DNA of 64,000 nucleotides from Candidatus Absconditabacterales bacterium. GTDB lineage: Bacteria > Patescibacteriota > Gracilibacteria > Absconditabacterales > Absconditicoccaceae. A program made the position numbers and the translations under genes. The notes beneath the pieces were generated by a model. That model saw nothing but the letters and a program-made list of their open reading frames with translations, ran no database searches and had not been told where the DNA came from. This document shows, one piece after another, positions 1-64,000 of this stretch (its first letter is position 1; each line of letters starts with the position of its first letter). The stretch is from assembly GCA_025057375.1 (NCBI GenBank), contig JANWWO010000003.1, positions 27,325 to 91,324 of the forward strand, given 5' to 3'.

Positions 1-67
1 TGCTATAGTGTTTTTTGGGTGAAAAGCAAGAGAAAAGTAGTGATCATGTCGACATCGTCTCTATTGA

Positions 68-137
68 CCGCTAATTTTTTGCATTTCCAGTTTTTTTTCT
101 CTATACTAATGATGACAGGTCGGCGTGGGTGTCGGAT
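68..137 (+). repeat. Direct repeat copy 1, carrying a promoter-like sequence
   Basis: About 70 bp that recurs at 1728-1797. The last 21 bp (ending GGTGTCGGAT) are identical in both copies, and both share TTTTGCATTTCCA followed by a run of eight T. This copy contains TTGCAT (79-84), a 17-bp spacer and TATACT (102-107), a good match to the promoter pattern seen elsewhere here. It may drive the 399-821 gene or a leader RNA. Confidence 0.6.
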
Positions 138-398
138 GAACACGTGTCGTGGTGCGAATCCACAATTTTCTCTTGCAAATCGTTTTTTTTTTTTATGATG
201 GGGAGGATGAATGTTGCAACATCAGATGATGTTGTTTCCTGATCGGAAATGGTATCGTCCCATGATTTTTTTTCTCTCATGGTCGTCAAAGGAGAAAAAC
301 TGGCTCCTTACGTTGTTTGGGTCAGGGTGTGGTTTTTAAGAATCCACTCCACGCAGTGTGCAAAAACAACACAAAAAGTCTAAAAAATCAAACGTTTT
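108..398 (+). other. Structured leader or non-coding stretch upstream of a lipoprotein gene
   Basis: No convincing gene in either code. The stretch lies between a promoter-like site and the gene at 399. It holds a near-perfect hairpin around 211-228 (CAACATCA, 2 nt, TGATGTTG) and a second inverted repeat around 260-282. It may be a long 5' leader or a small RNA. I do not recognise an RNA family. Confidence 0.3.
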
Positions 399-821
399 AT
401 GCGAAACACATTTCGTTTTTTGATCATCATCGCTATTGGTAGCTTGATGACCATGGTTGGGTCATGTATTCGTGTGCATGATGAGGTTGTTCCACAAAAG
501 AGCGAGAAAAAAATAACTCAATCTTTTGAGCAGATGCAAGTACAAACTTTTTCTTGGACCTCTCCACAGACTAGCTGCTGGAGCGGAATATCGTCCAGGT
601 TGTTGACATCAAGTCCAGGAAAGCGTGTAACTATTGTGATGGAAAATCGTCTTAACTCAAGTGGTCCTGCATCATTTATTGTAGAGAATATTGAAGGTGG
701 GACAAGGTCATTTATTGTTCAGAGTGGACAGAGTGCCTCATTTGTTCCAAGAGCAATAGGGAGTAGTGTTCGTGTGAGAACTACATCTCCATCTACAGTA
801 AATCATTGCATTTCATGGTAG
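399..821 (+). CDS. Small putative lipoprotein, unknown function
   Basis: A 140-residue protein starting MRNTFRFLIIIAIG, with a lipobox-like VGSC near residue 24, so it is probably exported and lipid-anchored. The rest is rich in Ser, Thr and Gly with three more Cys, and has no family I recognise. It has no UGA-coded glycine and ends in TAG, followed by a hairpin. The start follows an A/T-rich leader with no Shine-Dalgarno site. It lies between the two direct repeats, next to another secreted protein, which suggests a small accessory cassette. Confidence 0.65.
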   Translation: MRNTFRFLIIIAIGSLMTMVGSCIRVHDEVVPQKSEKKITQSFEQMQVQTFSWTSPQTSCWSGISSRLLTSSPGKRVTIVMENRLNSSGPASFIVENIEGGTRSFIVQSGQSASFVPRAIGSSVRVRTTSPSTVNHCISW

Positions 822-842
822 TCTGAGTTGTAGTATGTATGG

Positions 843-890
843 ACCAAAGATTGACGTATTATCAAGATACGCATCTTTGGTTCACCTTTT
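843..890 (+). terminator. Hairpin terminator after the 399-821 gene
   Basis: ACCAAAGA (843-850) pairs with TCTTTGGT (874-881), with an inner CGTAT/ATACG pair. It is followed by a T-rich but interrupted tract, so termination is plausible though not textbook. Confidence 0.5.
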
Positions 891-908
891 ATCTTCTTTG
901 ATTTTTCA

Positions 909-1664
909 ATGAAAATCTTTTATAGTATTCTTGCAATACTTTTGCTTTTGCTGATTCCTTCTTTTCTTCCTATTGTTTCTGATAATGGAACCAAAAGTGA
1001 ATGTCTATGATGACGATGATGGATCTACTGTTATACCAACTGATTATATAGATTTTTTCCTCTATGGTATGGGAAAGTAGATGCTGTAGTGTGATTTGAT
1101 GATGGATGATTTGTTGTTTCCCATAGATATATTCCTCGATTATGAGAATCTATTTTGGCCAAAGAAGTTTTTTTGTGATGACAATATGTTTTATGACCAT
1201 GATGAAATCTTTTTTTTAAGAATTGACGTTGATGGGACCTTGTGTCGTCATGAAGCTATGACACGACAGCTCAAATTCCTGTAAAAAATCCTTTATATAG
1301 TGATCTATGTCCAAATAACCAAAGCGATAATGCCATTTTTGATAGAGATAATGGGCTGCTATATTTTCGTTCTTCGTCTGATACATCAATGAATGTTTCA
1401 TGAGTTGTATATCAACTCCGACATTGTGTTTCCCCATTTTTTCTTGATGATGCAAAAATTACATACTTGGATCGTCCATTGGATAACTATCAACACATAG
1501 ACAGAGAGCCATTTTTTTTGCTAGGTGATCAGTATGTCAGTGATAAAAACACTATACGATATAAACATCATGATCTATGACCTCTTGAATACAATTCATC
1601 AATCAATGATGAAAATCATTTTTGTTTGACACAGAAACAATATATTTTCACACTACGAAACTAG
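909..1664 (+). CDS. Secreted or anchored protein, unknown function
   Basis: Only visible when TGA is read as Gly: 251 codons from ATG at 909 to TAG. It starts MKIFYSILAILLLLLIPSFL, a clear signal peptide or membrane anchor. The remainder is rich in aromatics and Asp, with short stretches such as LLGDQYVSDKNTIRY that loosely recall DKNYY-type extracellular repeats; this similarity is weak. At least fifteen UGA codons fall at plausible glycines, several in pairs, which argues that the frame is real. It follows the 399-821 gene after a hairpin, and a direct repeat begins 63 bp after its stop. Confidence 0.6.
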
Positions 1665-1727
1665 ATCGTATAGGTAGAGATGATTCAATGATGCTACAAG
1701 TGATTGCAGATTATGAAAAACCCATCT

Positions 1728-1797
1728 CCGACAGCTAATGTTTTGCATTTCCACGTTTTTTTTCTACTGATATTAGTAGGTCGGCGTGGGTGTCGGA
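1728..1797 (+). repeat. Direct repeat copy 2
   Basis: Second copy of the element at 68-137, in the same orientation. Here it can also fold as nested arms: CCGACA/TGTCGG outside, CCACG/CGTGG, and CTACT/AGTAG inside. It keeps TTGCAT at 1743-1748 but the matching -10 is weaker than in copy 1. The two copies flank a 1.6-kb segment with two secreted-protein genes. Confidence 0.6.
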
Positions 1798-1870
1798 TCG
1801 GTGAGGGGGATTATGATTGAGGATCCATCATCTTGATTGTTTGATTGTTATCTATATCGACTTCTGACTT

Positions 1871-3114: not shown

Positions 3115-4149
3115 ATGAAACTCGATGGTAAAGTAATTCAAGCTGCGATTCTCCAAGTAATCGAAGATTATAAATTCGATGCTAACCAGATTGTTGATAT
3201 TGTTAAAATGGGTATCAAGTCTGCATTTAAGAGGGATTATGAACAGTATAGAAGAGCAAATATTATGGTAGATATTGAAGATAGTGGTGATATCAAATTT
3301 TATCGTATTTTTACTGTCGTCCCTGAGGTAGAGGATGAACAGAATGAAATATCCGTTGATGAAGCGCAGAAACAAGCAGAAGGTATTGAAGTTGGCGAGG
3401 AATTGTATGTTGATATTACGCCCGATAATCTTGAGTTTACGAGAATTGGTGTGCAGTCTGCTGCTCAGACGATCAAACAACACATCAAAGAAATTGAAAA
3501 ACATAGATTTTTTGACAAATTTTCCCAAAAAGAATGAGAACTTCTCAAAGGGAAAGTCACCAAAGTAAATGGAACGACGATCGTTATTGATGTGGATGGT
3601 GTTCCTGTTGTCTTGCCTCCTCAATGACAAATCCCCCAAAAAGATTATGCTGTTGGTGATGATATTTTTGTTTTTTTGAGATCAATCAATAAATGACAGT
3701 GAGGAGCACAGCTTGATGTCACGCAATCATCTCCTGATTTTGTCGAAGCAATCCTCAAAAAAATCATCCCCGAATTGTCAGAAGGATTGATTGAAATCGA
3801 AAAAATCGTCAGAATTCCTGGGAAAAAAACCAAAGTTGTCGTGAGATCATTGCATGAACATCTTGATCCAATTGGGGTCATGCTCGGACAGTGAGGAGAA
3901 AGAATCAACATCCTTTTATCATTGCTTGATGGCGAAAAAGTTGATTTTATTGAATATGAAGATGATATTGAAGAATATATCAGGAAGGTTTTGCAACCAG
4001 CAAAAATTGATCGTGTCGATATCGGGAAAAATGTAGCCAAAGTCTATTGTGCTGAAAACCAAAAATCCCTCGCAATTGGGAAAGGAGCTGCCAATATCAA
4101 GCTTGCAATGCAATTGACAGGGTATAGAATAGATATTTTGTCTTCTTAG
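3115..4149 (+). CDS. nusA: Transcription termination/antitermination factor NusA
   Basis: A 344-residue NusA. It binds RNA polymerase and nascent RNA and modulates pausing, termination and antitermination. Domains in order: N-terminal polymerase-binding domain (about 1-135), S1 (about 137-200), KH1 with MLGQGGERI near residue 255, and KH2 with IGKGAANIK near residue 320. The protein ends after KH2, with no C-terminal acidic repeats. Several glycines are TGA, including one in the KH1 GxxG loop, which is strong evidence for UGA as Gly. ATG follows a T-rich leader. The stop TAG is 8 bp before mnmA, so the two are probably co-transcribed. Confidence 0.95.
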
Positions 4150-4157
4150 TCTGCATA

Positions 4158-5198
4158 ATGGCTCGCTACCTTGTTTGACTCTCATGAGGCGTTGATAGTG
4201 CTCTTGTTGCATCGATGCTTCGTGATCAATGACATGATGTAGTGTGTGGCTTTATGATTACCTACCGCGATGACACACCGCGATGCACTACTCGTCATGA
4301 TTTGGAATCTGCTCGTGCTGTAGCAGATTTTTTGTGATGTCCACTTCATTTGTTTGATTATCGTGATGATTATCATGCAAAAATTATTTCGTTGATGGTG
4401 GCAGAATATCGTCGTGGTCGTACACCCAATCCTGATGTTTGGTGTAATAGTTTGATCAAATTTGATTTATTTGCTCAGGATGCAATGATGTTGGGGGTGG
4501 ATGCGATCGCAACAGGTCATTATGCCACAATTCGTGATTGATCGTTATATCCGTGAGTTGATCCTATCAAAGATCAATCATACTTTCTTTCGAGGTTGAC
4601 TCGTGATCAGCGTCAGTTTGCTTTTTTTCCTTTGGGTGTTATGACCAAAGAAGAGGTTAGGAGACGTGCACATGAGCGTTGATTACCCAATGCAGATCGT
4701 CCTGATAGTCAGTGACTTTGTTTTATCGGCAATGTATCAATCAGGGAGTTTTTGCGTCCATGGATTGAGTCGTCTTCTTGACCACTTATATCTCGTGATG
4801 GGAAAAGAATAGGGACACATACAGGTGCATGGCAGCGAACACGTGGACAGCGTCGTGGTTTGTGACTCTTGCCAGAGTGGTATGTCTATGAGACTGATGT
4901 AGTGTCAAATACTGTCTATGTTTGTCATAAAGAGGACCCTCTCTTATGGTCTGATACAATTATTTGCGAAGATTGGGTATGGCATGATGATCCTGATGGT
5001 CGAAGTGGTTGTTCGTTGGTTGGAAAGGTAAGGTCCAGAATGCAACGATCTCCCTGTATAATGGATCACGAGCAGAAGATTGTGTTTTCTACGCCTGTCT
5101 GGGGAGTTGCGTGTGGTCAGGTTTGTGCAATTGCTGATGCTCAGACGAGGAGGCTGATTGGATCATGAATTATTTCTTCCGTCAAACCTTGATGATAG
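4158..5198 (+). CDS. mnmA: tRNA-specific 2-thiouridylase MnmA
   Basis: A 346-residue ATP-dependent thiolase that makes 2-thiouridine at wobble U34 of Lys, Glu and Gln tRNAs. The N-terminus MARYLVGLSGGVDSAL carries the PP-loop SGGVDS, with glycines encoded by TGA. The paired catalytic cysteines are present: C96 in [13 protein letters not shown] and C188 in DSQGLCFIG. The frame is cut by about eighteen TGA codons and ends at TAG after two of them. It follows nusA closely. The C-terminal beta-barrel is recognisable but divergent. Confidence 0.93.
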
Positions 5199-7236: not shown

Positions 7237-8133
7237 ATGGCTGATATCAAACAACTCAAGATTAAGATTCATTCTACCAAGAATATCAAAAAGATAACTA
7301 ACGCAATGGAGATTATTTCTACGATTAAGCTTCAAAAAGTCAAAAAACATACAGAAAGCTTGAGAAGATATATGATAGAATTTTTGGGAATGTTATCTGC
7401 TATTGATGGATATACGACATTGTTTCCTGCTTCTTCTCAGACAGATAATGCAAAAGAACTTATTATCTTGGTTTGATCAGAAAAATGATTGTGTGGATCG
7501 TTGAATACGTTATTGTTTAAACAGTTTCATGCACAATACGAATCTAAACAAGGTGCAGTTGTGCTCTTTACGATTGGCAAAAAAGCAAAAGAGTTTGCCT
7601 TCAAACGTGGCTATGACGTTATTGGTGATTGTTCTCTTCGTGATGTGTTTGAGTCTGATGATTTGCGTCCGTTGTATGATGTGCTTGGTGATGCATACGA
7701 ACATAAACGTTACGCCCGTATTACTGTCTATTACAATTACTTTAAAAACACGATGAAACAAATTCCTGTTGGTTTGGATTTGATGCCATTGTCTATGGAG
7801 ACCTGTGATCGTTTTATGAGAGAACTTGATATTGTTCTTCCTTCCAAGGTTTCTACGCGTACCTATAATGCAACGCACATAGAATTGGAGCCAGATAGAG
7901 AGACAATTGTTAAGAAAGCCTATGAAATCATGATGCGTATTATTGTCTATGGTGCCGTCTTACACAATAAAACGGGTGAATTTGCTGCGCGTATGCTTGC
8001 GATGAAATGAGCAAAAGATAATGCAACATCGATTATTTCTTGATTGACATTGGCATACAATAAGGCTCGTCAAGATGCAATTACAAAAGAAGTGTTGGAA
8101 ATTGTGAGTGCAAAAGCTGTCATTGAAGATTAG
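7237..8133 (+). CDS. atpG: ATP synthase F1 gamma subunit
   Basis: 298 residues. This is the central rotor stalk of F1, which couples c-ring rotation to catalysis in alpha3beta3. The N-terminal helix KIHSTKNIKKITNAMEIIS and C-terminal helix GEFAARMLAMKGAKDNA are typical of gamma. The conserved GSEKGLCGSLN has both of its first two glycines written TGA. It starts at ATG after a T-rich leader (TTTTTGTTTTT) and ends in TAG. Confidence 0.95.
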
Positions 8134-8210
8134 TCAGAGATATGATGTGAGAAATGTTCTTCTTTGATGTTTTAGTGTTGTATGTTTTATCTTCTGTTTT
8201 GTTATCTGAT

Positions 8211-9230
8211 ATGACGCTGAGATTATTTTTTGTTTGTCTGCTGCTGTGATTGTATAGTTTGTGAGCCCCCCCTCTCTTTGCAGTTGATATTATTGTCTGA
8301 TCCTGAGTAAAAAATGATCCTTATTATCAAATGAATTCGGCAAATCTCAATACGATGAATTCCTATATTATTCCCGTTGAAAATGATATTGATCCACAAA
8401 ATTATAAAGAATTGAAATATTCTATCTCGTTTGAGGATTGATCTCTTACTTTTCAAAAAGATACAAGTCCTTGATACAAAATAATTCATATTATGTCGTC
8501 GTATGTCGGATACATCTGTTTGTGGTTCATTTTTCTTTTCTTGTGGTATTGGGGTGTTAAAAAAAAAGATTCTGATTTTTGACAAGTTCTTCGTTTGATC
8601 TTTGAGTGAATATGGTGATTTTTTGAAGATATTCTTGGTCATCAGAGGAGTCATTGGATCAAAGTATATGTAGTTTCTTTGTTTTTCATTATTCTTCTTT
8701 CCAACCTTTTTGGTCTGTTTGGAGATGTTATTAGATTTGTTTTCCCTCAATATCTTAGACGGGTGACTGCCCCAACGAGTGAGTTCGAGTCAACGATAGC
8801 AATGGCGTTAATTTCTATACTGATCACTTTTTATGTTCAGATGAAAGCTGTATGATGACCTTTGTCTTTGCTTCATGAGTATGTGCCAGTGACAGGAAAG
8901 TGACTTTTTCAATGATCATGAATACTAACCAAAGCATGAGATATCCTTATCAGTTTATTCATTGGGTTTCTTGATATCGTTGGTGTTGTTGCAAAGGTTG
9001 TATCATTATCAATTAGATTATTTGGGAACATGTCTTCATGAAGTATTTTATTGAATGTTATTTTTATTGGATTTGGTCTTGTGACTGTTGGATTATTATG
9101 ATTTAATATGCCTTTCTGAGTTCCTATTATCATTTATGTTCAATCAATCCTTGTTTCTGTAGTCCAAGCTTTTGTGTTTTCTTTATTGATCGGTATTGGT
9201 TTAGTTATGGCTGATTGAACAAGTGAATAA
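8211..9230 (+). CDS. atpB: ATP synthase Fo subunit a
   Basis: 339 residues. The membrane stator subunit that forms the ion half-channels facing the c-ring. The key arginine lies in VVSLSIRLFGNMSSG near residue 270. The N-terminus is long: MTLRLFFVCLLLGLYS looks like a signal peptide, followed by about 90 extra residues before the usual first helix, so the topology may be N-out after cleavage. Many glycines are TGA. It ends in TAA and is followed by atpE. Confidence 0.93.
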
Positions 9231-9327: not shown

Positions 9328-9780
9328 ATGGATCTTAATTTTGTATGAGTTGCTCTTGCGATTGGTGTTACTGGTTTATGAGTGACAATATGTCAATGAC
9401 TTGTTGCGAGAGAAGCTATTGAGGCTCAATGAAAAAATCCAGATCTTGCTGGAACACTTAGGACATTGACTATCTTGTGATTGGCTCTTGTAGAATCTGC
9501 TGCGATTTATGGTTTGGTTGTTGCAATTCTTATCCTTCAAAAAGTTGGTGTTGATTGATTTGCGGCGACTCAGTGACTTGCTGCGTGACTTGCGATTGCA
9601 CTTCCTTGATTTGCTGCATGACTTGGTCAGGGCATGATTGTTATCAATGCAATCAAAGCTGTATTGAGAAATCCTGCTGATACTGCAAATATTAGAACGA
9701 ATATGATTATTTTTATTGCACTTGTAGAATCTGCTGCGATTTATGGATTGGTGACAGCTATTTTGATCCTTAATAAATAA
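9328..9780 (+). CDS. atpE: ATP synthase Fo subunit c, fused double hairpin
   Basis: 150 residues, about twice the usual c subunit, made of two helical hairpins in tandem (four membrane helices). Each half has a Gln in helix 1 (Q23, Q101), a loop containing NP (KNPD, RNPA), and in helix 2 the motif LVESAAIYGLV with the ion-binding Glu (E56, E134), Ser and Tyr. The Gln-to-Glu spacing is 33 residues in both halves, as in sodium-binding c subunits such as that of Ilyobacter tartaricus. By my count ten of 18 glycines are TGA. A 26-bp stretch (9487-9512 and 9721-9746) is identical in the two halves. Confidence 0.93.
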
Positions 9781-10794: not shown

Positions 10795-10824
10795 ATGTTT
10801 TTTACTTTTATTTATTCTTACCTT

Positions 10825-12324
10825 ATGTCTTCTGTTGATACTATTCTCAAAAAAATTGAAGAACAAATACAAGCAACATCCCTTGATGAATCGTTTTCTG
10901 AAAAAGGAATAATTTTGGAAATAAAAGATGGTGTGGCGACTGTATCATGACTTGCGAAAGCTAAATACTCAGAGATTGTTGTTTTTGAATCTGGTGTCAA
11001 ATGACTCGTGTTGGATTTGATGCAAGAGTATGTTGGTGTTTTGGTTCTTGGTGAGTATATGTGACTGACTCAAGGACAAACAGTCAAAACAACAGGCAAA
11101 CTTTTTTCGGTCTGAGTAGGAAATCAGTATATTGGTCGTGTGCTCAATGCGTTGGGAGATCCGATTGATCAGTGACCATCATTGACCCCGACTACATATT
11201 TGCCTGTCGAAAAAGTTGCTCCTGGTGTGATTACCAGACAATCTGTTGATCAACCACTCCAAACCTGAATAAAAGCGATTGATGCGATGATTCCTATCGG
11301 AAGAGGACAGAGAGAGCTGATTATTGGTGATAGACAAACAGGAAAGACAACTGTTGCTATTGATACGATTATTGCTCAAAAAGGTAGTGGTGTCGTATGT
11401 ATCTATGTTGCTATTGGTCAAAAAGAATCCAAAGTCGCTCGTATCGTTGAATCATTGAGACACAAAGGAGCAATGGACTATACGATCGTTATTAATGCTC
11501 CGATCAATACCCCTGCGGTAATGCAATATATTGCTCCTTATGTAGGTGCAACCTTTGGAGAATTTATTATGTCTCAAGGAAAAGATGCATTGATTATCTA
11601 TGATGATTTGACTAAACACGCATCTGCATATAGGGAAATGTCGCTCCTTCTTAGAAGACCTCCCGGACGTGAAGCATATCCTGGTGACATTTTTTATCTT
11701 CACTCAAGATTACTAGAAAGAGCATGTAGATTGAATAAAGATTATGGTGGTGGTTCGTTGACTGCTTTGCCTATCATTGAAACGCAAGCATGAGATGTGT
11801 CTGCCTATATCCCAACTAATGTGATTTCTATCACGGATGGACAAATTTATCTCGAATCAAACCTTTTCAACGCCGGAATTAAACCTGCGATTAACGTTTG
11901 ATTGTCAGTATCTCGTGTATGATGAGCAGCTCAAACCAGTATTATGAAAAAAGTCTCAGGAAAACTCAAATTGGAATTGGCTGCCTATAGAGAACTTGAA
12001 ACATTTGCAAAATTTGGGTCTGATCTTGATAAAAGTACCCAAGCAAAGCTTGCAAGATGAGAACGTATGGTCGAGATGCTCAAACAAGCCGAAAATAGTC
12101 CACTCTCATTTCACAAACAAGTTGTATTGATTTATGCAGGAATCAATGGATATTTGGATACTATTCCTGTGTCGTCTATTCGTTCTTTCGAACAAAAGCT
12201 GTATGACAAGCTTGATACAACTTTCTCTGATCTATCAGATAAGATTCTTTCAGAGAAAAAATTAACTGATGAAATTGAAGAGCGTATCAAAGCTTTGTGT
12301 GCGGAAGTAAGAGATGAGTTTTAG
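10825..12324 (+). CDS. atpA: ATP synthase F1 alpha subunit
   Basis: 499 residues. The non-catalytic nucleotide-binding subunit of F1. The Walker [10 protein letters not shown] and the family signature PAINVGLSVSRVGGAAQT near residue 365 are clear, with several glycines in the latter encoded by TGA. Start ATG after a pyrimidine-rich leader, stop TAG. It follows atpH by 30 bp. The middle of the gene uses GGN glycine codons almost only, whereas both ends use TGA often. Confidence 0.96.
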
Positions 12325-12446: not shown

Positions 12447-13841
<1,395 letters not shown>

Positions 13842-14013
13842 TCTTACTTATACTATATACGGATATTAGGAGTTACTCTTATTGTTCGTATTTTTTTTAT
13901 TTGACGAAATTATATCATTTTCTCTTGCATTATGAGAGAATTTCTCTATCTATTACTATGGGTGCAGTAGTCTTTCTTGCATATTTTTTTTATTTTTTTT
14001 CTTCTTCCTTTCC

Positions 14014-14514
14014 ATGAATCTTCAAAAAACACTTATTGTTCTCAAGCCTGATGCAGTGGTTCGTGGCCTTCTTGGTGAAATTATTACTCGTTTTGAAAAG
14101 GTAGGTCTCAAGCTTGTGGGTGCTAAGATGCTCAATCCTGATGAAACATTTTATTATCATCATTATGAAACAATCGGAAAAATGATTTCTCGTCGTGGAC
14201 AACAAGCTTTCGACGTGACTCTCAAAATGATGCAATATTCACCTGTTTTGGCGATGGTGTGGGAAGGTGTAGAGGCAGTATCTCTTGTTCGTAAAATGGT
14301 CGGTGCTACTGAGCCTAAATCAGCAAATCCTGGTACGATTAGAGGCGATTATTCTCATATTTCCTTTGCGTATGCTGATGCGACAGGTCGTCCGATCAAT
14401 AATCTTATTCATGCGTCTGGTGATCCAGAAGAAGCAGCACTTGAAGTTGCTCACCGATTTCATCAGCATGAGTTGTATGCGTATGATACTGTTCATTCTC
14501 CATTTGTTAACTAA
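14014..14514 (+). CDS. ndk: Nucleoside diphosphate kinase
   Basis: 166 residues. Transfers the gamma phosphate of ATP to NDPs through a phosphohistidine. Family hallmarks: TLIVLKPDAVVRGLLGEI at the N-terminus, PGTIRGDYS, and the active-site His in NLIHASGDPEEA (canonical NxxHGSD, so one Gly is Ala). At 166 residues it is about 20 longer than the common bacterial enzyme. The T-rich leader TTTTTTCTTCTTCCTTTCC precedes ATG. No UGA glycines. It follows a 170-bp spacer containing TTGCAT-type promoter sequence near 13925. Confidence 0.93.
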   Translation: MNLQKTLIVLKPDAVVRGLLGEIITRFEKVGLKLVGAKMLNPDETFYYHHYETIGKMISRRGQQAFDVTLKMMQYSPVLAMVWEGVEAVSLVRKMVGATEPKSANPGTIRGDYSHISFAYADATGRPINNLIHASGDPEEAALEVAHRFHQHELYAYDTVHSPFVN

Positions 14515-14878: not shown

Positions 14879-15559
14879 ATGACAAAAATCTCAAAAAAAA
14901 TGAAAGAAGCACGTAGACATGTTGATGTGCTCAAGACATACGATGTTGCTGATGCAATTATATTGTTAAAAAAAATTTCTTTCACAAAATTTGATCCTAC
15001 TGTCGAAATTGCTATTAAAACATATGCAAATCCAAAATATAATGACCAAATGATGAGAGGAACTATTGCGCTTCCTTATGGTACCGGAAAGACTGTGTGT
15101 GTTGCTGTGTATTGTTCAGAGGACAAAGTTGAGGAAATGAAAAAGGCAGGTGCAGATATTGCTGGATGAAAGGATCTTTTGGATCGTATTGAAAAATGAG
15201 ACATAGCTTTTGATGTTCTTGTTACGGATCCGATGAGTATGAGAGATTTGGCAAGAGTTGCAAAAATACTCTGACCCAAGGGTTTGATGCCATCTCCGAA
15301 GGCAGGAACGGTGTCACAGGACGTTGCAAAGGCTGTTGATGAGATTAAAAAAGGAAGAATAGAGTATAAGATTGATAAAACATGAAATATTCATGGTGTT
15401 GTCGGTAAATTATCATTTGATGATGCTGCATTGATTGCCAATATCCGTGAGTTTATCAAAACAATGAATGACAACAAACCTACGGGAGTAAAAGGAAAAT
15501 TGATCAAGACAATTACTATCGCTGCAACAATGACACCAGGTGTAAAAATTGCAGAGTAG
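14879..15559 (+). CDS. rplA: 50S ribosomal protein L1
   Basis: 226 residues. L1 binds 23S rRNA in the mobile L1 stalk. The signature region [16 protein letters not shown] is present with its first Gly as TGA, and the N-terminal [10 protein letters not shown] and C-terminal [20 protein letters not shown] segments match. Four TGA codons are used. It stands without rplK in front, unlike the usual L11-L1 pair, and precedes secY. Confidence 0.96.
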
Positions 15560-15593
15560 TCTTGTTTTTTGTTTTTATTTTCTGATTTCTCCT

Positions 15594-34722: not shown

Positions 34723-35199
34723 TTATCTCTCTATCGTGTTTCCTCTTTTGGTCCATGCCATCAGTGCAAGTCACAGTGCATCGACAGCATCAGCATATTG
34801 AGGTTTGTGTGCTAATCAAAAAAGACGCATAATAACTTGTGTCATGAGAGATTTGGTAGCGTTACCATTGCCTGTGATTGTTTTTTTGAGACTTATAGGG
34901 CTGACTTCGATGAGTTGCGCTCCTGCTTGTCGAGCACGGAGAAGAATAAGGTATCTGACACCATAGATGAGTCAAGCTTTTTGTTTATTTTTTTCGGTAA
35001 AAAATAGCTGTTCGACAGCACAGATGCGAGGAGGAAAACGTCAAAAAAGATCATGAATAAAGCGGTCTATATTATCAAGTCTTGCGATATCATCTGTGTT
35101 GTCTTCTTGAAGGATAACCCCAGCCTCTAGGATTTCTTGCTTAGCTCCTAGGACAGCAAATCAACATTTTCTCATACCTGGATCTATTCACACATACAT
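34723..35199 (-). CDS. ruvC: Holliday junction resolvase RuvC
   Basis: 158 residues. Dimeric endonuclease that cuts Holliday junctions. The RNase H-like fold residues are present: D6 in MYVGIDPGMRKCG, the Glu in CAVEQLFF, and the acidic pair in DAVDALGLAL. The basic loop ISLKKTITGNGNATK also fits. Five glycines are TGA, including those in VGID and DALGLA. Its start overlaps the recJ end by 16 bp. It is the last gene of the gyrB-to-ruvC run. Confidence 0.95.
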
Positions 35200-38483: not shown

Positions 38484-38536
38484 CGGAGTTCAAAGAATAA
38501 AATGGGGATGATTGATTGTCCTGCTCATCCAGAGCT

Positions 38537-39893: not shown

Positions 39894-41831
<1,938 letters not shown>

Positions 41832-41923
41832 AGGGAGAAAAAAAATAAAACACCGACTTTTTTTTACGGTTTTTTTTCCAAATCGCAAGACCAAATACTA
41901 GTAAGTTTGGTGGTCGAGATCGT

Positions 41924-48584: not shown

Positions 48585-49502
48585 ATGAGAACTCTTTTGG
48601 CATGTATCATGATCGCATTGTTATCGTCTTGTACGATAATAATCGAGAGACCAGAATGTGTACAACCTCAGTATCAGGTTGTGCCCATAGTGAGCGTTTT
48701 CGAATATGGCTCGACTTGTTCGGGCGTTACGGCCTTGGTTATCGAAGGATTCAGTGTGTATCAGCTAACCCAAAATGGGTATCTAAAAGTAGATGAAGTA
48801 TCTGAGCTACAACAACGATCCTCACACATTCATGTGGTGAGGGATTTTGTTCAGCGTATGGATTCAATAACAATTATCGGATTAGGGCCTAACGGCTCTG
48901 GCCGGTATTCGGTTGTGTTGCGTAAGGATCCCCAATTGAGTGTGGGTGAATATTATGGATATCTCCATATACTCGCGAATCGATTTCACACGTTTTTGTA
49001 CGATGGGTACGTCGTTGCAAAACGTGGTGTGACAAAATGGACCGTTTCAGCTATTCCACTTCCCCCTGTCATTGTCTCTGTTCATTACCCAGACATGACA
49101 GAGATGATCTTGTTTTTTAATCAAACAGGAGTCCATCGTCTCTCAGGGGAACTCGCCGTAACGGCTAGGACCCAAGGGGGCATAACAATAACCTCAGAAA
49201 GCATGGATCTCGTCTATGAGATCCCATGTAATGAGGTTCTAAATGAACCTTTCATATTTCCAGATCTCCGTGGTTTGGGCCAATATAACGGACCATTCAC
49301 CATCCGAAAAAAAACATGGAGATCTATGGCTGGACAGTATACGACTGGCGTGATAACATATGCCTATTTGTTTAATCTGCCAGCATATAATTCGATATTG
49401 CTGTCTTATGACGAAATATCGGATGAGTTAAAACGTCAACTGATCGCCTTAACCGGCGATGCAAGACGAGCAGACATGCTTATCTTGTACACACCAAAGT
49501 GA
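48585..49502 (+). CDS. Putative lipoprotein, apparently written in the standard code
   Basis: 305 residues. MRTLLACIMIALLSSCTIII is a lipoprotein signal with lipobox LSSC. All 22 glycines in the frame are GGN and none is UGA, and the codons are GC-richer (GGC, CGG, GCC, TCG) than in neighbours. The frame ends at TGA 49500-49502, sixteen bases before a perfect terminator. If TGA were Gly the protein would run 24 codons further, through the hairpin, to TAG. Taken together this looks like a gene from a standard-code organism. The body is beta-rich by appearance; function unknown. Confidence 0.6.
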   Translation: MRTLLACIMIALLSSCTIIIERPECVQPQYQVVPIVSVFEYGSTCSGVTALVIEGFSVYQLTQNGYLKVDEVSELQQRSSHIHVVRDFVQRMDSITIIGLGPNGSGRYSVVLRKDPQLSVGEYYGYLHILANRFHTFLYDGYVVAKRGVTKWTVSAIPLPPVIVSVHYPDMTEMILFFNQTGVHRLSGELAVTARTQGGITITSESMDLVYEIPCNEVLNEPFIFPDLRGLGQYNGPFTIRKKTWRSMAGQYTTGVITYAYLFNLPAYNSILLSYDEISDELKRQLIALTGDARRADMLILYTPK

Positions 49503-49517
49503 GAAAGAAACCTCACA

Positions 49518-49560
49518 AACCCATCCATGCATTACTGCAATTTGGATGGGTTTTTCTTTT
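49518..49560 (+). terminator. Terminator after the 48585 gene
   Basis: AACCCATCC (49518-49526) pairs with GGATGGGTT (49544-49552), followed by a T-rich run. Confidence 0.88.
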
Positions 49561-49595
49561 TGTCAAGATTATAGCATTGTATCGTCCCAAAAAAT

Positions 49596-49625
49596 TTGCA
49601 TTGTATGCAAGGATATCGGTATACT
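49596..49625 (+). promoter_or_regulatory. Promoter of the Cys-rich surface protein
   Basis: TTGCAT (49596-49601), 18 bp, TATACT (49620-49625), 70 bp before ATG 49696. Confidence 0.7.
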
Positions 49626-49695
49626 TAGGATGACGTATCAATGGAGTGACGATGTCATTGTGGTCTGCCCCTTTTATTATTGTCTTGATGAGCGT

Positions 49696-52600
49696 ATGGT
49701 AACAAAACAATCGATGGTCTATTTCATGATTGCGCTGTTTGTGCTAGGGTCCTATACGATTGCTCAGAGCGATCCCTCAAATGGTTGATTGAATTGTGGA
49801 GTTTTTGACTCCAGAAGAGGAGATCCTGCGTATGTACAGTGATTTTATGCGTGATGGATAGAAGAAAACGCATCTGCAAGTGATAGATCCAAGCGATGCT
49901 CAATCAATGGACCGTATTATTATCAAAACGATGTCAGACAAGTAGGTAACCAATATGTATGGACGTGTAGAGATAGATTTGAGGCTGTGTCATGACCATG
50001 AGCTGTCCAATGTCGTGCTCCTATTTTGCCACCAGAAAATCCTGGCTGTGGGTGATCGACGAGTTATTCTTCTCAACCCCAGTCAAACTTTTTGAGACCA
50101 TTATGTACACCAGCTCCTGCAAAATGACTCGTGGACCCTGGATTGCCTACTGTTGCAAATATCAGATGATGACAGGGTGAAACATGGAAACGAGATTGTT
50201 CTGGAAGATATTATACCAATAGAACCTGTGAGGCAGCATCACAAGGAGTATGTAATTCTGCGAAAAATAATAGGACATTTAATGATCTCTCTGAAGCCGA
50301 TGACCTTTGCCAAAATGGGTCAGTCGCATCTTTTTCGTTTAATGAAGAAACATTTCGTTGGTCATGGGTTTGTCAATGATCATCACCAGAACTTAACGCA
50401 ACTTGTACAGCATCCAAAACTGCCGTTTTGCCAGAATGTAGTCCCAATTTTAATAATAGACAGGTCAATACACTTACACAAGTCCCTGATTTATGCTCTA
50501 AGTGAACTGTTACCAATTTTCAAGAGTCACCAACAGCTGATGGACGAACATGGACGTGTGTAGGGCAACCATCGACCCAGACGAGAGAATGTCGTGCGTC
50601 AAGGACTATCCAGCAGTGACAGTGTGGTGGTGCTGCTGCTACCTTAAAAGTTCCTGTTGATGTTACTACGCCAGCACAGTTTTTGGCGAGATTTGCTTCG
50701 GTGCAGTTGTGTTTGGCAGGGAATGTGACTGGTGTTGTTATGAATCAAAATACGTGGACATATAAATGTACTGGTTCCAGACCGCAGGATGATCGTGAAT
50801 GTACCGTTGCAAAGAATGATACCCCTGGTGCATGTGGGCTTGCCCATCAAACAACACGTCCTACGTTAAACCAAACTACCAATGATTTGTGTAATGGGGA
50901 TATCCAGGCATCACATTTTGTGTATAACTCATGATCAGGGATATGGACATGGAGATGTGTAGGATTGACACAATCAGCAGAATGTAGTGCCAATAGGCAA
51001 GTTGCTTGACAATGTAGTACTGCCGTCAATGCAAGAACATTGTCTTATGAGCAATTACTCCAAAATATCTGAACACTCTGTACTGAAGGGCGCCCATCGA
51101 CGACATCCTTTCCTGAGAGTAGTGCCAACGGTGTGTGGAGTTATAGCTGTCAAGGGTTTCATGGATGAAATAATGCGAATTGTTCCGTTTTGCAAAGAGC
51201 AGATGCGGTGTGTTCTCCTTATCCTCGTCCAATTTCTACGAGACCACAAACGCTCTGTACGATAGGGAGGCCGATTTGATTAAGGTCTTTGAGTGGATCA
51301 CGAACATGGACGTGTGAAGGTTTCAATGGGGGAGCAACATTGTCATGTACTGCTGCCTGTGTTAATGGTGAGTGTAATGAAGCTGCATGTGATGGGCTCC
51401 AACCCACAGTAACGAATACACAAATGTGTCAAGACTGTGATGGATGTCTGTGTGGAGGACGTACAATTTTTAATGGAGCAGTTTGTGTGGATACACAAAG
51501 ACCTGTGGATGATGGTGCTGCATGTCCTGGACCATGAGATTGTTTGTGTGATGGATTGCTTATTAGGCCTGGAGAGATTTGTTCGAAGGCAGATAGACAG
51601 TGTACAGCATTGACTGCCTGAATGGTCTGTCAAGATAGAGATTGTTGTATTTGTCAACTTGATACCCAGGCGATGAGCAGTCCATGAACATGAGGAACAT
51701 GATCGCAGCCATCTTCTCTTATGGTAGCAACATGATTTCAGATAGTATTTTGACAGCGTTGTGAAGCGAGTGATGGAAGATATGGGACATGTGCGAGAAA
51801 TAGTCAGTGTGATGATGTTGATGGGTGTGTTTTCCAAGAAATGTGGGTACCGTATCAAGAACGTTGTGGCGCGTGTGCTGATATGACACAATGTACACGT
51901 TTGGCAGTTGATCAAACATGTACAGATCCTCTCGGATGTTTGTGTAATGACTATGAAATTTATCGTGGAATGGTGTGTAAACAGTGAGATGGTACGATTC
52001 CGCAGATCAATAATGGTGATCGTTGTGCAAGTATTGCTTGATGTATCTGTGATGGAAGAAGGGTTTTTATTTCAACACTCTGTCTTATACGTGATGCAAG
52101 ACCAACACCAATTCAATCAAATCAGCAGTGTGCTGATCCTGATGGATGTGACTGTAACGGATATCGTATTTTCAATGGTTGACGTTGTTTGGTTCCTGAT
52201 GGAATAAGATCTGTTCTGACAAATACTCACGTATGCGATGATATTGATGGCTGTTTGTGTGGAACACGTGCTGTTTCTTTCCAGTCTCAGTGTATGATTA
52301 TGGCTGATGAGAATGATCCGAATAATCCTAATTTTATTCCTGCTATTTTTCGTCATCCTTTTTGACCATGACTTGATAGCTTTGGGTTTGGGTCCTTGTA
52401 TGATATGAGTATGATGTTGCCTGGAAATGCTGATCTAGAATTGACATTGATATCGTCAGTGACAGGTATGAATAGGCATGATCCTCATGTTGTATATACT
52501 ATTCAGTATCGTAATATTGGACCTGACGTAGCAGTGGGGACCTATGTTGCATTTAGAAAATCTCCCCTTTTGGGAGACTTATATTCGAGTATCCCTCATA

Positions 52601-53730
52601 CGATGATGAGAACATCTATCACAGGAACGGCGGTCGATCATCGTACTATTTATATGTTTTTGGGTAATCTTCCTCAATGATCATGATGAACAATTACTAT
52701 CACTGGAATAATGCTTCGTTCACTTCTCACGAATGATCTTATTTCGACTGCTCAAATTCAATCAAGGCTAAGAGATTCAAATCCTCTCAATAATACCTCA
52801 AGTTGGACTATTCGTATTACTGATCGTTTGTTGGATCCTGGGATGAATTTTATCAATCCATTACCTCCATTGAGATCTTTCCTTGACGCTGTTAAAGCAA
52901 GATTGGAGTGGATTGGGGCACCGACAGAGTTTAGGGATGTAAGAATAGGACACCCGTGGTATATGCATATCATGACTGTTCAAAGAAACGGTATTATGAG
53001 ATGATATCAGTATAGATTTTCAACACAATTTGAGCCCAAAAAGTGTATTTCTCGTTTGGAAATATTGACTGTTGCTGCAAGAATTGCACTCCTTGATCCA
53101 ACCAATGATGTATTTCGTCAAGAAACAAGACAGACTCCATTTCGTGACGTTCGTGGGAATGTTGAGACGATGAGAAATATCAATCGATGACATAGCATAG
53201 GATTGACTGATGTGTTCAAGGCAGGAAGAAGTAATCCTGATCTTCTTGCTCCTGATAAGGGGGTATCTCATAGAGAGGCAAAAGAGGTGTTCAACAGATT
53301 GTTTCTCAGAATGCAAATAGATCCTGCATATTTGAGACCATTGTTTGTCGGGAATGATAAGAGATGGTCTACGGTTTGTGTCACGAGGGAAGAGGCGGCA
53401 TATACCGTTGCTCATCTTCTTAGAGGACATCCTCATATCTCGATGGGATTTAATGATATCTTTCTTGAGAAATTATACGATGCGCTTGTATGATATGGAC
53501 TTAATCAGAGGAGAGAGATTATTCATCGTATTATCATAAGATTGAGATTGATGCTGCCTTCTCGTTTCTTTATGCTTGGACTTGATGGTGAAACGATTAC
53601 AGGTATTTTGCAAGCTGCATTACGTGGTGAGCAGTATAGACAGCAATTTACTACATCAACATTAGAAAACTTTTTTGATGATATTATGATTGATGAATAT
53701 GATAGGTTTGTGAGAGGAATGACAAGATAG
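49696..53730 (+). CDS. Giant Cys-rich secreted surface protein
   Basis: 1344 codons with TGA as Gly, ending in TAG. Signal peptide MVTKQSMVYFMIALFVLGSY. Residues about 30-560 hold repeated modules of the type W-x-C-x-G with C-x-A (for example RTWTCVGQPSTQTRECRA, NTWTYKCTG, GVWSYSCQGFHGG, RTWTCEGFNGG). Residues about 560-880 hold DGC-x-C modules (DGCLCGGRTIFNG, DGCDCNGYRIFNGG). A DUF11-like beta domain follows (ADLELTLISSVTG ... VVYTIQYRNIGPDVA). The C-terminal 350 residues include an SLH-like segment TPFRDVRGNVETMRNI. Likely a disulfide-rich adhesin or surface fibre. Confidence 0.75.
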
Positions 53731-57647: not shown

Positions 57648-59462
57648 CTAGGTAAGTCACTTTTTGAATTTTGCTCTATCTGATTCGGTGAGATGGATTT
57701 TGCGGATTCTGATTGCTACCGGTGTTATTTCGACATACTCATCGGATCAAATATATCCAAGTGCGTCTTCAAGGGTGAGTTTGCGGATAGGTTCAAGTCT
57801 CATTGCCTCATCATGGCCTTGAGTTCTTATGTTGGTCAATTGTTTGTTTTTGGTCAGGTTGATTGTCATATCTCCTGGTTTCGAACTTTCTCACACAATT
57901 TGTCATTCATAAATTTCTTCCCCAGGCTCGACAAATATTGTTCACCTTTCTTGTAGTTTTCGGATGCTATATCTCATTGCTGTTCCTGTTTCCATTGAGA
58001 TCAATGAGCCATTTTGTCTTGCGGGGATTTCTCCTTTATGGGGTTCAAAATGAGAAAATGATGAATACATGATGCCTTCTCCTTTGGTCATCAAAATAAA
58101 AATTCCTCTAAATCACAACAGTCCTCTGGTCGGGACGTCCATTTCAATTGTTGTGATACCATTGAGTGATTTCATTGTTTTGAGAAGTCATTTTCTTTGC
58201 GATAATGTATCAATTACTCAGCCACTGAGTTCGTCAGCAACGAGTAAGACGACATGTTCGATTGGTTCCATTGTTCTTCCATCCTCGATTTTTATAATCA
58301 CTTGTGGTGCAGATACTTGGAGCTCAAATCCTTCTCTTCTCATAGATTCGATCAAGACTGACAAATGGAGTTCTCCTCTGCCTGAGACAGGATATCTTTG
58401 TCCTTTGGTAAAATCCACACGAAGTCATACATTGGTTTCACATTCTTTGCGAAGTCTTTCTTCGATATTTCTTGAGGTGACTTTTTTCCCCACTCTTCAG
58501 GCAAATGGAGAATCATTTACCACAAACTCCATGGTCAAGGTTGGTTCATCAATGGTGATAGCTGGCATTGGTTCTGCGTTTTCATCACCAGTAATCGTTT
58601 CTCCTACAAAGATGTCATTAATTCCTGCGATCGTCACGATATCTCCACTTGATGCTTGTGGTGTTTCAATTCTTTGGAGTCCACGTGTAGTATAGACTTT
58701 TGAGATTTTTGCTTTACGTTTGATTCCCTCATTATTGATGACCCAGACCTGTTGTCATGGCGAGATTGTCCCTTCATAAATTCTGCCAATTCCTAGTCTT
58801 CCGACATACTCATCATACTCAAGGTTGACAATTTGGATTTTGGTAGGTTTATCATCATAATTGGGTGCTGGAGGTACAATGCGAATGATTTCGTCAAGCA
58901 GGGGGATAATACTTGACGGAGGATTGTGTGGATCAAAACTATCAATATCAGTCAGTGCGTAGCCATTTTTTGCACTTGTATAAATAATAGGAAAATCTGC
59001 TTGTTCGTTGCTTGCGCCTAGTTGAAAAAATAGATCAAAGATTTGGTCGATCACTCGATCTGGTCTTGCAGTTGGTTTGTCGATTTTATTGATGACGACG
59101 ATAGGTTTGAGACCACGTTCTATTGCTTTTTTGAGGACAAATTTGGTTTGGGGCATAGGTCATTCGTAGGCATCGACAACCAGGAGAACAGTATCAACCA
59201 TTCTCATGACTCTCTCAACTTCACTTCAAAAATCAGCATGACCAGGGGTGTCGATAATATTGATCGTTTCATTTTTGTACACAATAGCCGTATTTTTTGC
59301 ATAAATGGTGATTCATCTTTCGCGTTCTTGGTCATTATTATCCATAATGAGAGGAGTGTCTGCATTGCTTTGTATTGTGCCTGATTGTTTGAGCAATTCA
59401 TCAACGAGGGTTGTTTTCCCATGATCGACATGGGCGATGATTGCTATTGTTCTTATTGCCAT
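57648..59462 (-). CDS. typA: GTP-binding protein TypA/BipA
   Basis: 604 residues. Translational GTPase of the EF-G family involved in 50S assembly and stress. G motifs: [11 protein letters not shown] near residue 10, ERERGITIYAKN (switch II region), [20 protein letters not shown] and SAKNG. C-terminal TypA-specific segments include GEEIYEGQIVGES and [15 protein letters not shown]. Glycines are TGA at several places including near the end. Stop TAG. Confidence 0.95.
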
Positions 59463-59590: not shown

Positions 59591-59696
59591 TCGTCTGTGT
59601 ATGTGTGTGTTTGTGTTGTGTTCCGATAAAGGTGAACATCTTCTTTCTTATGATGATAAGAAAAAGGTATAACGCTATTTTTTATTCTTGTTGCCA

Positions 59697-61574
59697 ATGA
59701 TGTTGTGGTTGTTGATGATATGATGAGTCATGATGGTATTTCCTGTGTGGGCAAATACAGGTCTTGATTCATGACCAGGAACCTGATCATGACCAGGAAC
59801 TTGACTATGACATCAGGTGTATCCTGCATTATTTTTGTCTGATCGTTGTTCATTGGTAGAGCAGGGTGTATGGTGTAGGAGACGATGAACGGGTTCGACA
59901 TGATTGCAGGAATGAATGATGTTTTGGCGTGATCATCAGAGGCTTCGTTCGTATGCGATGGAGGCAGTAGTGCGTGATGGAGCTGTTTTTTGACGCCCCT
60001 TTAATTGATGATTGGCTGGTCGTATCCGTCTCCAGCCAAATGGTTTTGCATATTTGGTTCAGACAAGTGATAAACGTGTAATTCTCCATACGCAAACCTG
60101 AGAGGTTCGTACACGAGAGACACATTCGATATCCGATATTCGTGATGTTGTTTTGGATGGATGGAATGGACAGGATTGGGTGGTAAGATTTGTGTATCGT
60201 GATCGTGAGGAAATTTGGCGAGGAGGAATGCATCTATCATGATCTGTAGGAAGAACAAGTGATGCTCCGTTTGGATATTGGGTGAGAATGTCAGGTCAGT
60301 CGATTCTTTTTTTACCTTGACAACATCCTCATATAGTCCAGGGTGATGTAACGAGGCTTTCCTATCGTGATGACTTGTGGATATATCGTAGTGGAACGGG
60401 GTGGTTTATCGTTGGGCAAGAATGACTGGGCGGGTTTGATGCTGTTGATCAGGCAATGGGGTGATCGCTTCGTTTACAACGTGGGTGAACTGATCGATAT
60501 GTAGTGTGAAGTGGTATTGTAGGTCCTTTTTCATGAGTGATCTCGTGGTATTACCAGCCACCGTATCGAGCAGTGATCACAGTGTCGGGAGATAGTCGTT
60601 TGATCACTGTCAATAATCGTGTCTATTCGTGATCTGATCATGCCTATTTTTTTTCGTCACTACCTTTTGGGTTTTGAGGGCGTTTTGGATGGGGTGTGAG
60701 AAGGCCTGATTGATTTCATACGATTTGGGTAGATGGAAGAGAAAGATTGATTGTTAATTGACAAGGATCACAGTCACGTGTTGAAATTATTGGGATTGAT
60801 GATTGGTATGAAGTGACACAACAATCTCATGTTGATTCATATCGTTTTGATTATGCTGTATGATATGATGGGCGTTGGAGAGTGTTTTTGTCTTGACAGG
60901 ATCTTGGTGAATGGTTTCGTGATGTCTTAACGCCAGCTCGTGATCAGGGTCTTCGTCGTGGTTCGTGAGCAAGTTTTGTTTTTGTGAAGAATCAGGATGA
61001 CCGTCGATCGTTGCGTACGCGAAATCAAACCGTGTGAGCGTGGACCGCGCTTCGTGACATACAGTGGTATCAATGACGTCCGACGTTTCTTGCGCGTAAT
61101 ACAAGAGATGAACGAGAATTGCGATGGGGAACATCAATGATTTATAAACACAATGATATTCGTTTGTATCCATCCTTACCTTCTCCTACGTTCCCCATTT
61201 TTTCTATCCGCGATGCAGGTAGTACAACACGAAGACAGGTTTCGTGAGGATTGGTGCCTCAGCGTGTGATAACGGGGATGGTGCGATCAGGTGTGTATCT
61301 GTGGGAAATGACGCAAGGTACGACGACGAGATTGGTTTTGTGGTGAGGAGCGAGGCAGGAGAGGATGTTGTTCCAAGATTTTTGGTTTGGCCTTGAACAT
61401 GAGTATCGTTTGCTCGTTGGACGTGTTTTGGATACTCGTTTCGGGACGACACTGAGTGGTGCTCAACGTATGGCGTTGATACGTGTGTTGAGAACATTGA
61501 GAGATGGAGAACGTCATGCTATCAAACTCCTCTTGATCGAGGCAATGATTGATCATCTCGCGGGAAGGAGATAA
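59697..61574 (+). CDS. Secreted protein with a glycine-rich linker, unknown function
   Basis: 625 codons with TGA as Gly. The N-terminus MMLWLLMIGGVMMVFPVWAN is a signal peptide. It is followed by the linker GLDSGPGTGSGPGTGLG, whose glycines are largely TGA. The body has many Trp, Tyr, Arg and Gly residues and looks like repeated beta-strands (segments like DLWIYRSGTGWFIVGQE, YDGRWRVFLSG). A helical C-terminus (MALIRVLRTLRDGERHAIKL) ends it. No family recognised. TAA stop, 7 bp before the next gene. Confidence 0.6.
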
Positions 61575-61581
61575 TGATGCT

Positions 61582-62235
61582 ATGATAGATGATTTTATTT
61601 TTGTGATGTTGATTGTCATGTCGTCTGCTGATCTTTTGGATACGTTTAGCAAAGATTCGTTACTGGGTGTGATTACGCACAGTATTGTTGCTTATCTTCC
61701 TCTTTTTTTTCGTGTTCTTGCGTGGCTAGCGTTTTTTTTGTCTGTGTATGCGAGTATTGTTCGATGGTATGAAAATGTCCCTCGTTGGATAGATTGGGTA
61801 TTTGCCTCGATGGGGATGCTTCTTTTTTTGTGGTATTTGCTACGTTTGTACCAAATCCGTCTTGATGCAATTGTGTTGTTGCCTAATGGGTTGCAGAGAT
61901 TGGTATGGAACAATCTCTTTCGTTATGATAGTACGATTTATGAGCGAGAGTCCATCGTCTCTGTATCTCATCAAAAGAAATGAGTTATCGATTCGCTTTT
62001 TTTTACAGGAACGTTAGTTATCATGATGGAAGATGGTAGAGAGATTGTCTATCCTCATGTTTATGACCCCCAAAGTGTTGTCCAAAAAATCACCAACGAA
62101 AAAACTGCTTATGATGCTAGAAAGTTTCAATCTAAACCTTCAGAGCAGCCGGCAACTACAACGAGTGAAGACTTTCAGGTTTTTGTTTCCACGCTTGGGA
62201 ATGTCATCAGGGACTACCTCCAAAAAAAATCATAA
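61582..62235 (+). CDS. Small membrane protein with a PH-like C-terminal domain
   Basis: 217 residues. Two membrane helices (residues about 40-60 and 70-95) and a C-terminal domain. That domain reads IRLDAIVLLPNGLQRLVWNN and SLFFTGTLVIMMEDGREIVY, with strand pattern and ending like bacterial PH domains (bPH2), then a polar linker and a short helical tail. Similar build to the frameshifted gene at 42086. Eight bases after the 59697 gene, so likely co-transcribed. Confidence 0.55.
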
Positions 62236-62277
62236 TCGATGAGTGAAACAACGTGATGATGGTGAGATGCAAAAAAC

Positions 62278-62305
62278 TTGACTTTAAAAAAAAGATTTGT
62301 ATAAT
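62278..62305 (+). promoter_or_regulatory. Promoter of the 62356 gene
   Basis: TTGACT (62278-62283), 16 bp, TATAAT (62300-62305): the most consensus-like promoter in the window. Confidence 0.8.
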
Positions 62306-62355
62306 TGCCGTATCATCAACGGTGATGAGATTTTTATTTTTTTTATACTACTACT

Positions 62356-62841
62356 ATGGTATTGTTCCAAAGCAAAGGTCCAGGTGAGGATCATGAATGC
62401 ATGAATGAACGAACAAAATCTATAGATTGAATTTTTAATTATACGAAAAAATACCTTTTTGAGTGAAAGAGTCTTTCTGATTTTTTAGATAAACTTAAAG
62501 AGTCATGATTTGATGACATCACTTCATTTAAAGTTCATTGTGCGAGTCTCCTTGATTATGGAAAAAGCCGAGACAACCTGTTTTCAAAACAAATGGAAGA
62601 AATCGATCAATCAATTGCAGATGATATAAAAAGCTGAAAATTAGAAATTAAATGTGAATCAGATAAATTATTCGAAAAAATGACTCGTATGAAAGAGTCC
62701 AATATAAGATCAAGAGACAATTATATTCACATAGGTATGAATTTTGATAAACAAAATAGAGAAAAATTAGAAGCCATTTTTAGATATTGTGACCTTGTTC
62801 AAAAATTTTCACAAAACATATGAAAAGCTTTGGACTCATAG
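62356..62841 (+). CDS. Soluble hypothetical protein
   Basis: 161 codons with TGA as Gly, ending in TAG. Starts MVLFQSKGPGEDHECMNERT; helical and charged throughout, with no signal or membrane segment and several Cys. No family recognised. It has a strong promoter and a terminator of its own, so it is a single-gene unit. Confidence 0.6.
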
Positions 62842-62850
62842 TAATATACG

Positions 62851-62880
62851 ATCTCCCCTCCCATCTGGGGATTTTTTTTC
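62851..62880 (+). terminator. Terminator between the 62356 gene and aspS
   Basis: CCCC and GGGG with ATC/GAT outside, then eight T on the plus strand. Confidence 0.75.
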
Positions 62881-62912
62881 TAAGAAAAGGAGACAAGGCA
62901 ATCCCGATGTCC

Positions 62913-64000
62913 CTACTCCTTCTTCACTTGTATTCCCAACACATCCAACTCTTTCGTATCAATCACACTCGGTGCTCCCATCATCACATCTTGTGCACGT
63001 CAGGACTTGGGGAAGGCGTAGACCTCACGGATATTATCCTCATCGACCAAAATCATGAGCAATCTATCAAAGCCGATTGCAAACCCTCCATGCGGTGGTG
63101 GTCCGTATTGAAACGCTTCGTACATTGTTCCAAAACGTTTTTTGATTTCGTCCACACCATATCACGCTTCCTCAAATGCTTTGATCAAAACCTCTGGATC
63201 ATGGTTACGAATTGATCATGACAGGATTTCGTAGCCATTGCAGGCAAGGTCGTATTGTGTGGTTTTTCGGTCTTTTGCTGGCGTCCTAGTCATCACTTCG
63301 AGTCATCCTTGGATATACGAAAACGGATTGTGTGCAAAATCAAGCCCGTTTGGTTTGTCAGGATTTTCTTCAAAAAAGGGGAAATCCAAAATCCATACAA
63401 AACCCAGATGATTGGGATCACTCAATTTGTACGTATCTCTCAAAGCAAGGCGAAGTTTGTTCATGCATGCACGGACTGTCTTTACGTCACCCGCCATTAT
63501 AAACACAATATCTCACGCCACACAGTCAAATTCGTCAGTGAGATCTTTTTTTTCTTTTTCGGAAAGTTTAGACGCAAGAGACCCACTGACGCCAGTCTCG
63601 TCTCGCTTGATATATCCCAGTCCCGATCAGCCATTGCGTTTGACTAGATCCGTAAAGCTATCAATCTCTTTTCTCGACACGCTTTGCCCACTGAGTTTGA
63701 GACCCACAATATCGTTTCATGCATTACGTCCCTCCATAAACAAAGGAAAATCGCTTGAGGTAAAAATCGTTTGTAAAGAATGCAACTCACATCCAAAACG
63801 CATATCTGGTTTGTCAGAGCCATAGCGTGCCATTGCTTCTTCATACGGCAGACGGGGGAAGTCGACCGTAATTTTTTTATGCGGAACAAAGTGTTGGATC
63901 AAGTATTTGATATATTTCTCTACGACTGCAAAAACATCATCTTGATGCACAAAACTCATCTCACAGTCGATCTGATAAAATTCACAACTATGACGATCAG
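62913..64000 (-). CDS. aspS: Aspartate-tRNA ligase, 3' part only
   Basis: The last about 362 residues of a bacterial-type AspRS; the start lies beyond the window edge. Motif 2 region [19 protein letters not shown], a bacterial insertion domain ([20 protein letters not shown]), and motif 3 [14 protein letters not shown] are present. The typical bacterial C-terminus [20 protein letters not shown] follows. Four or more glycines are TGA, one in the SGRAQ-like segment before it. Stop TAG. Confidence 0.95.

Follow-up and report, generated by a model that had tools for sequence, protein, structure and literature searches.

Three codons appear to have changed their meaning in this patescibacterial genome: UGA would be read as glycine, and both CGA and CGG as tryptophan. 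Judging from sequence, we give this reading a probability of roughly 0.96. The window that we analysed is the whole stretch of 64,000 nucleotides, that is, bases 27325-91324 of contig 15 in a genome of 1.13 Mb (21 contigs, 97% complete). Among the core genes recognised in it are nusA, mnmA, the F-type ATP synthase cluster, ndk, rplA, secY, groS/groEL, infB, ruvC, recJ, murG, gyrB, and typA. Full-length genes are obtained when only TAA and TAG are taken as stops, and the 24 recognisable core genes are divided evenly between the two (12 end in TAA and 12 in TAG), in agreement with the original prediction. Each of the 24 carries at least one in-frame TGA, 258 in total, and thus the expectation that the standard code would break nearly every gene was also correct. 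The in-frame TGA codons reported for AtpG, the MnmA PP-loop, the AtpD P-loop, SecY, the MurG loop, and the GroEL tail are all present. The genes on which our argument draws are listed below.

3115-4149, plus strand: NusA (Pfam NusA_N and KH_5; codon counts), with 5 in-frame TGA and no CGA or CGG.
4158-5198, plus strand: MnmA (Pfam tRNA_Me_trans), with 13 in-frame TGA and 4 CGA; in the PP-loop LVgLSgGVDS, residues 7 and 10 are TGA (4176-4178 and 4185-4187), and the PRC-barrel domain rises from 53.4 to 58.7 bits once CGA is read as Trp.
7237-8133, plus strand: AtpG, with 4 TGA; one of these, at residue 84 (7486-7488), supplies the Gly of GLCG and stands where 99% of homologues have glycine.
8142-9230, plus strand: AtpB (Pfam ATP-synt_A), with 20 in-frame TGA; every homologue that extends over residue 300 (100%) has Gly there.
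9328-9780, plus strand: AtpE, a duplicated c subunit (Pfam ATP-synt_C in two stretches), with 10 in-frame TGA.
10795-12324, plus strand: AtpA, with 11 in-frame TGA, 8 of them on Gly columns of the homologue alignment.
12447-13841, plus strand: AtpD, with 16 in-frame TGA, 13 of them on Gly columns (PDB and homologue alignments); the P-loop GLFGgAgVGKT has TGA at 12903-12905 and 12909-12911.
13882-14514, plus strand: Ndk, with one CGA, on a Trp/Phe column (W or F in PDB alignments); Pfam NDK rises from 124.3 to 128.9 bits with CGA as Trp.
15549-16925, plus strand: SecY (Pfam SecY, 260 bits), with 14 in-frame TGA.
19721-21358, plus strand: GroEL (PDB alignment, codon map), with 8 in-frame TGA, of which the Gly-rich tail holds three; it ends in TAA.
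29309-31666, plus strand: IF-2 (Pfam GTP_EFTU and IF-2), with 22 in-frame TGA and no CGA or CGG.
35184-36860, minus strand: RecJ, with 4 CGA; reading CGA as Trp lifts RecJ_OB from 34.6 to 43.0 bits.
37404-39116, minus strand: MurG (Pfam Glyco_transf_28 from residue 214), in an ORF that holds 20 TGA and 10 CGA/CGG in all; MurG is probably about the last 360 codons and the upstream part spurious, and the glycine-rich loop reads MAgggSgGH with in-frame TGA.
39894-41894, minus strand: GyrB, with 12 TGA, 2 CGA, and 1 CGG; DNA_gyraseB rises from 155.4 to 157.9 bits with CGA and CGG as Trp.
57648-59462, minus strand: TypA/BipA, with 14 TGA and 2 CGA; one CGA stands at the Trp of ARPDW, where the TypA PDB chains aligned to the masked codon have W, and the second aligns to Phe.

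Three further products of the window deserve mention in their own right. AtpE is a protein of 150 amino acids with two hairpins, each bearing the motif VESAAIYG, which we take to resemble that of sodium-type c subunits. The ORF at 59688-61574 encodes a Gly-Pro-Thr-Ser-rich repeat (SGPGTGSGPGTGL) with 32 in-frame UGA, for which a Pfam search returned no family. The large ORF at 49459-53730, of 1423 amino acids, contains 35 in-frame UGA as well as a DUF11 domain, and its product is possibly a surface protein.

The placement of UGA was assessed with TGA, CGA, and CGG masked as X before alignment, so that no meaning was presupposed, and with 21 to 77 standard-code bacterial homologues as references for each atp gene. 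Of the 31 TGA sites that could be assessed in AtpG, AtpB, AtpE, AtpA, and AtpD of the window, 24 lie in columns where Gly is the majority residue (background glycine frequency 0.10; binomial p = 3.6e-18), which bears out the claim that TGA falls on conserved glycines. Adding this genome's LeuRS and IleRS brings the count to 43 of 54 columns, and alignments of AtpD, GroEL, TypA, and LeuRS with PDB chains, again with TGA masked as X, show mostly Gly at the TGA sites. A scan of genome contigs with AtpD found mostly distant standard-code bacteria, and its best match (L042) also carries in-frame TGA in the AtpD P-loop. Together with the tRNA and release-factor findings given below, these alignments establish UGA as a glycine codon as far as sequence allows.

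The same masked alignments single out two arginine codons. In the codon tally over the five atp genes, LeuRS, and IleRS, CGA falls on Trp in 17 of 18 conserved columns and CGG in 1 of 1, a single column for this genome to which relatives add support. UGA, CGA, and CGG are the tally's deviations from the standard code, and all remaining codons with useful data agree with it (AGC, with two columns only, is uninformative). Thus, of the proposal that translation table 25 applies, the glycine reading of UGA stands, and the assumption that all other codons are standard does not. In IleRS, CGA occupies the Trp positions of the motifs GWDCHGLPIE (which reads WGWDCHGLPIE), AWTTTPWT, and DWCISR. The usage of these codons points in the same direction, as the frequency of CGA plus CGG over the 24 window genes follows that of TGG (Spearman 0.93) more closely than that of the other Arg codons (0.47); atpA, atpD, and infB, which are Trp-poor and Arg-rich, have zero CGA or CGG, and Trp-rich genes have many. 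Reading CGA and CGG as Trp instead of Arg changes the Pfam scores in the window by a net of about +21 bits, a comparison that is mixed by domain, with several scores falling, and that we therefore keep out of the main evidence.

The IleRS of this genome (L137:1786-6063, minus strand; contig 20) is itself unusual, with 1425 amino acids and two histidine-phosphatase domains (PF00300) inside the class I catalytic domain. Parts of this insert match some other genomes of the class, one standard-code genome included, and a literature search on an IleRS histidine-phosphatase insert found no matching paper.

Relatives within the family of this organism use CGA and CGG in the same way. In LeuRS from 13 own-family genomes these codons lie on conserved Trp columns and on 0 conserved Arg columns, and in IleRS from 19 own-family genomes 65 of the 69 at invariant columns lie on Trp and 0 on Arg. 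Three CGA in the relatives' IleRS, and individual CGA codons in LeuRS, are aligned with Pro, which is probably a misalignment. The tRNAs are in accord. In this genome the UCG and CCG tRNAs resemble tRNA-Trp(CCA) in having G73 and no A20, whereas the Arg tRNAs (UCU, CCU, GCG) have A20. Our tRNA pattern search recovered UCG and CCG tRNAs in most, not all, genomes, and those from own-family relatives likewise lack A20 and have G73.

These observations bear directly on the best of the competing explanations, namely that the genome uses table 25 as it stands, with UGA alone reassigned and CGA and CGG still read as Arg. Table 25 is registered for the group, and in three sister families whose UGA is also recoded (f14, f22, and f24) CGA and CGG do mean Arg: in their IleRS these codons fall on Arg 15 times and on Lys 3 times, and in the IleRS of standard-code members of the class on Arg in 15 of 15 cases. 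In f14 and f22 the UCG and CCG tRNAs that our search recovered have A20 and A73, whereas those of the present genome are without the Arg determinant A20. Given that IleRS and LeuRS of its own family place CGA and CGG at invariant Trp positions and at no conserved Arg, we reject table 25 for these two codons and regard it as a very improbable description of the genome as a whole. The attribution of the code to Absconditabacteria and Gracilibacteria can be narrowed as well, since among the sampled UGA-recoded families CGA and CGG are Trp solely in the window's own family.

We favor the three-codon reading also because of the machinery that would serve UGA. As had been anticipated, contig 18 encodes a tRNA whose anticodon is UCA (22343-22416), and this tRNA has G1:C72, C2:G71, G3:C70, and U73, the glycine criteria applied in PMC8629427; its acceptor, GCG..CGC plus U73, is that of the genome's other Gly tRNAs. 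This tRNA also decides against UGA as selenocysteine or, as in table 4, tryptophan. ARAGORN labels it SeC, on the basis of the anticodon only, and tryptophan is the commoner outcome among bacterial reassignments of UGA. However, the molecule is 75 nt long with Gly identity elements and without a long variable arm, UGG is found at Trp columns, and UGA lies on Gly columns, with just two instances on Trp in the own-family alignments (one in LeuRS, one in IleRS). Both readings are rejected on the alignments and the shape of the tRNA, and we assign them a negligible probability.

The search for release factor 2 also came out as expected. Models of prfA and prfB match one and the same gene (415 bits as prfA, 226 as prfB), which carries the PAT motif of RF1, and a second prfA match is weak (20 bits, about 110 positions covered). 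Thus, RF2 was not found by model search in the genome, and because the assembly is 97% complete, its absence is in part a conclusion from relatives: in a scan of 145 genomes of the class, all 21 own-family genomes in the sample, and families f14, f22, and f24 as well, gave no RF2-type match, and nearly all remaining genomes have one. The catalytic GGQ of RF1 is spelled UGA-UGA-CAA, with both glycines as UGA (L001:1456-2529, minus strand), and the sole release factor found therefore needs UGA to be glycine for its own active site. A reading of UGA as a stop, with the genes as pseudogenes, frameshifted, or contaminant sequence, would fit the breakage of every recognisable core gene under the standard code, but it is refuted by codon placement and has next to no chance of being correct, as in-frame UGA occurs in 24 of 24 core genes within long open frames and mostly at conserved Gly where assessable, most sampled related genomes show a similar pattern, and no RF2 was found.

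We propose that the three-codon code would operate as follows. UGA would be a glycine sense codon read by the dedicated tRNA-UCA, presumably charged by GlyRS, and some modification of U34 may keep this tRNA off UGG. With RF2 absent, RF1 alone would terminate translation, at UAA and UAG. CGA and CGG would be Trp codons read by the UCG and CCG tRNAs, which lack the Arg determinant A20, have the Trp-type discriminator G73, and are likely charged by TrpRS. UGG would remain a Trp codon read by tRNA-CCA, and AGA, AGG, CGU, and CGC would be left as the Arg codons.

This code is a match to the one already predicted for Absconditabacteria, and the phenomenon as such is known. It has been on record since 2013 (Campbell et al. 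2013; Rinke et al. 2013; both as cited in PMC8629427) that Absconditabacteria and Gracilibacteria read UGA as glycine, and this is registered as NCBI code 25, for SR1 and Gracilibacteria. The present genome shares with table 25 the glycine UGA, the tRNA-Gly(UCA), the lack of RF2, and the stops UAA and UAG, and it differs in that CGA and CGG, Arg in the table, are both Trp here. With the Gracilibacteria-type families f14, f22, and f24 it shares UGA as Gly and the lack of an RF2-type match, but there CGA and CGG stand at Arg or Lys, and the f14 and f22 UCG and CCG tRNAs have A20 and A73. CGA and CGG as Trp were predicted for Absconditabacteria with Codetta (Shulgina and Eddy 2021; PMC8629427) and restated in 2026 as a property of Absconditabacterales (PMC13092985), of which they are a mark in the literature (PMC8629427, PMC13092985). 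Judging by its code, and by its family being separate from the other families without RF2, the genome most likely belongs to Absconditabacterales (SR1). Our genome has in common with the 2021 description the meanings of all three codons, the Trp-like UCG and CCG tRNAs (G73, no A20), and a low G+C content (38.6% in the window).

The difference from the 2021 description is one of degree. With a single exception, genomes were reported there to use CGA and CGG rarely, as at an early stage, with CGA under 37 and CGG mostly under 7 per 10,000 codons (PMC8629427). In the 24 window genes, CGA stands at 43 and CGG at 9 per 10,000 codons, a window count rather than a genome-wide one, with some starts over-extended. 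At the conserved Trp columns of this genome's LeuRS and IleRS, CGA and CGG outnumber UGG by 16 to 11. Across LeuRS of the family, CGA and CGG stand to UGG as 13 to 2 in G112 and as 12 to 4 in G032, and G065 and G050 barely use them (1 to 15). In several relatives, as in this genome, the two codons thus match or exceed UGG at the conserved Trp sites of the genes examined. These counts, which come from two genes only (LeuRS and IleRS), suggest a later stage than that described in 2021 in several genera. We lean toward the view that the capture of CGA and CGG by Trp has gone far beyond the rare-codon stage in this family, that in several genera the two codons together now encode Trp more often than UGG does, to a degree that differs per genus, and that the family may thus be a natural series of stages of sense-codon capture whose code deserves a table of its own.

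Standard-code gene calling breaks every core gene recognised here. Since CGA and CGG have moved from Arg to Trp, table 25 left unchanged would place Arg at conserved Trp positions, namely at more than half of those checked in LeuRS and IleRS of this genome. For the biology of the group, the window's own family, set against sister families that have recoded UGA and keep CGA and CGG as Arg, would offer a clean comparison for the origin of a second reassignment, that of a sense codon, beside the first.
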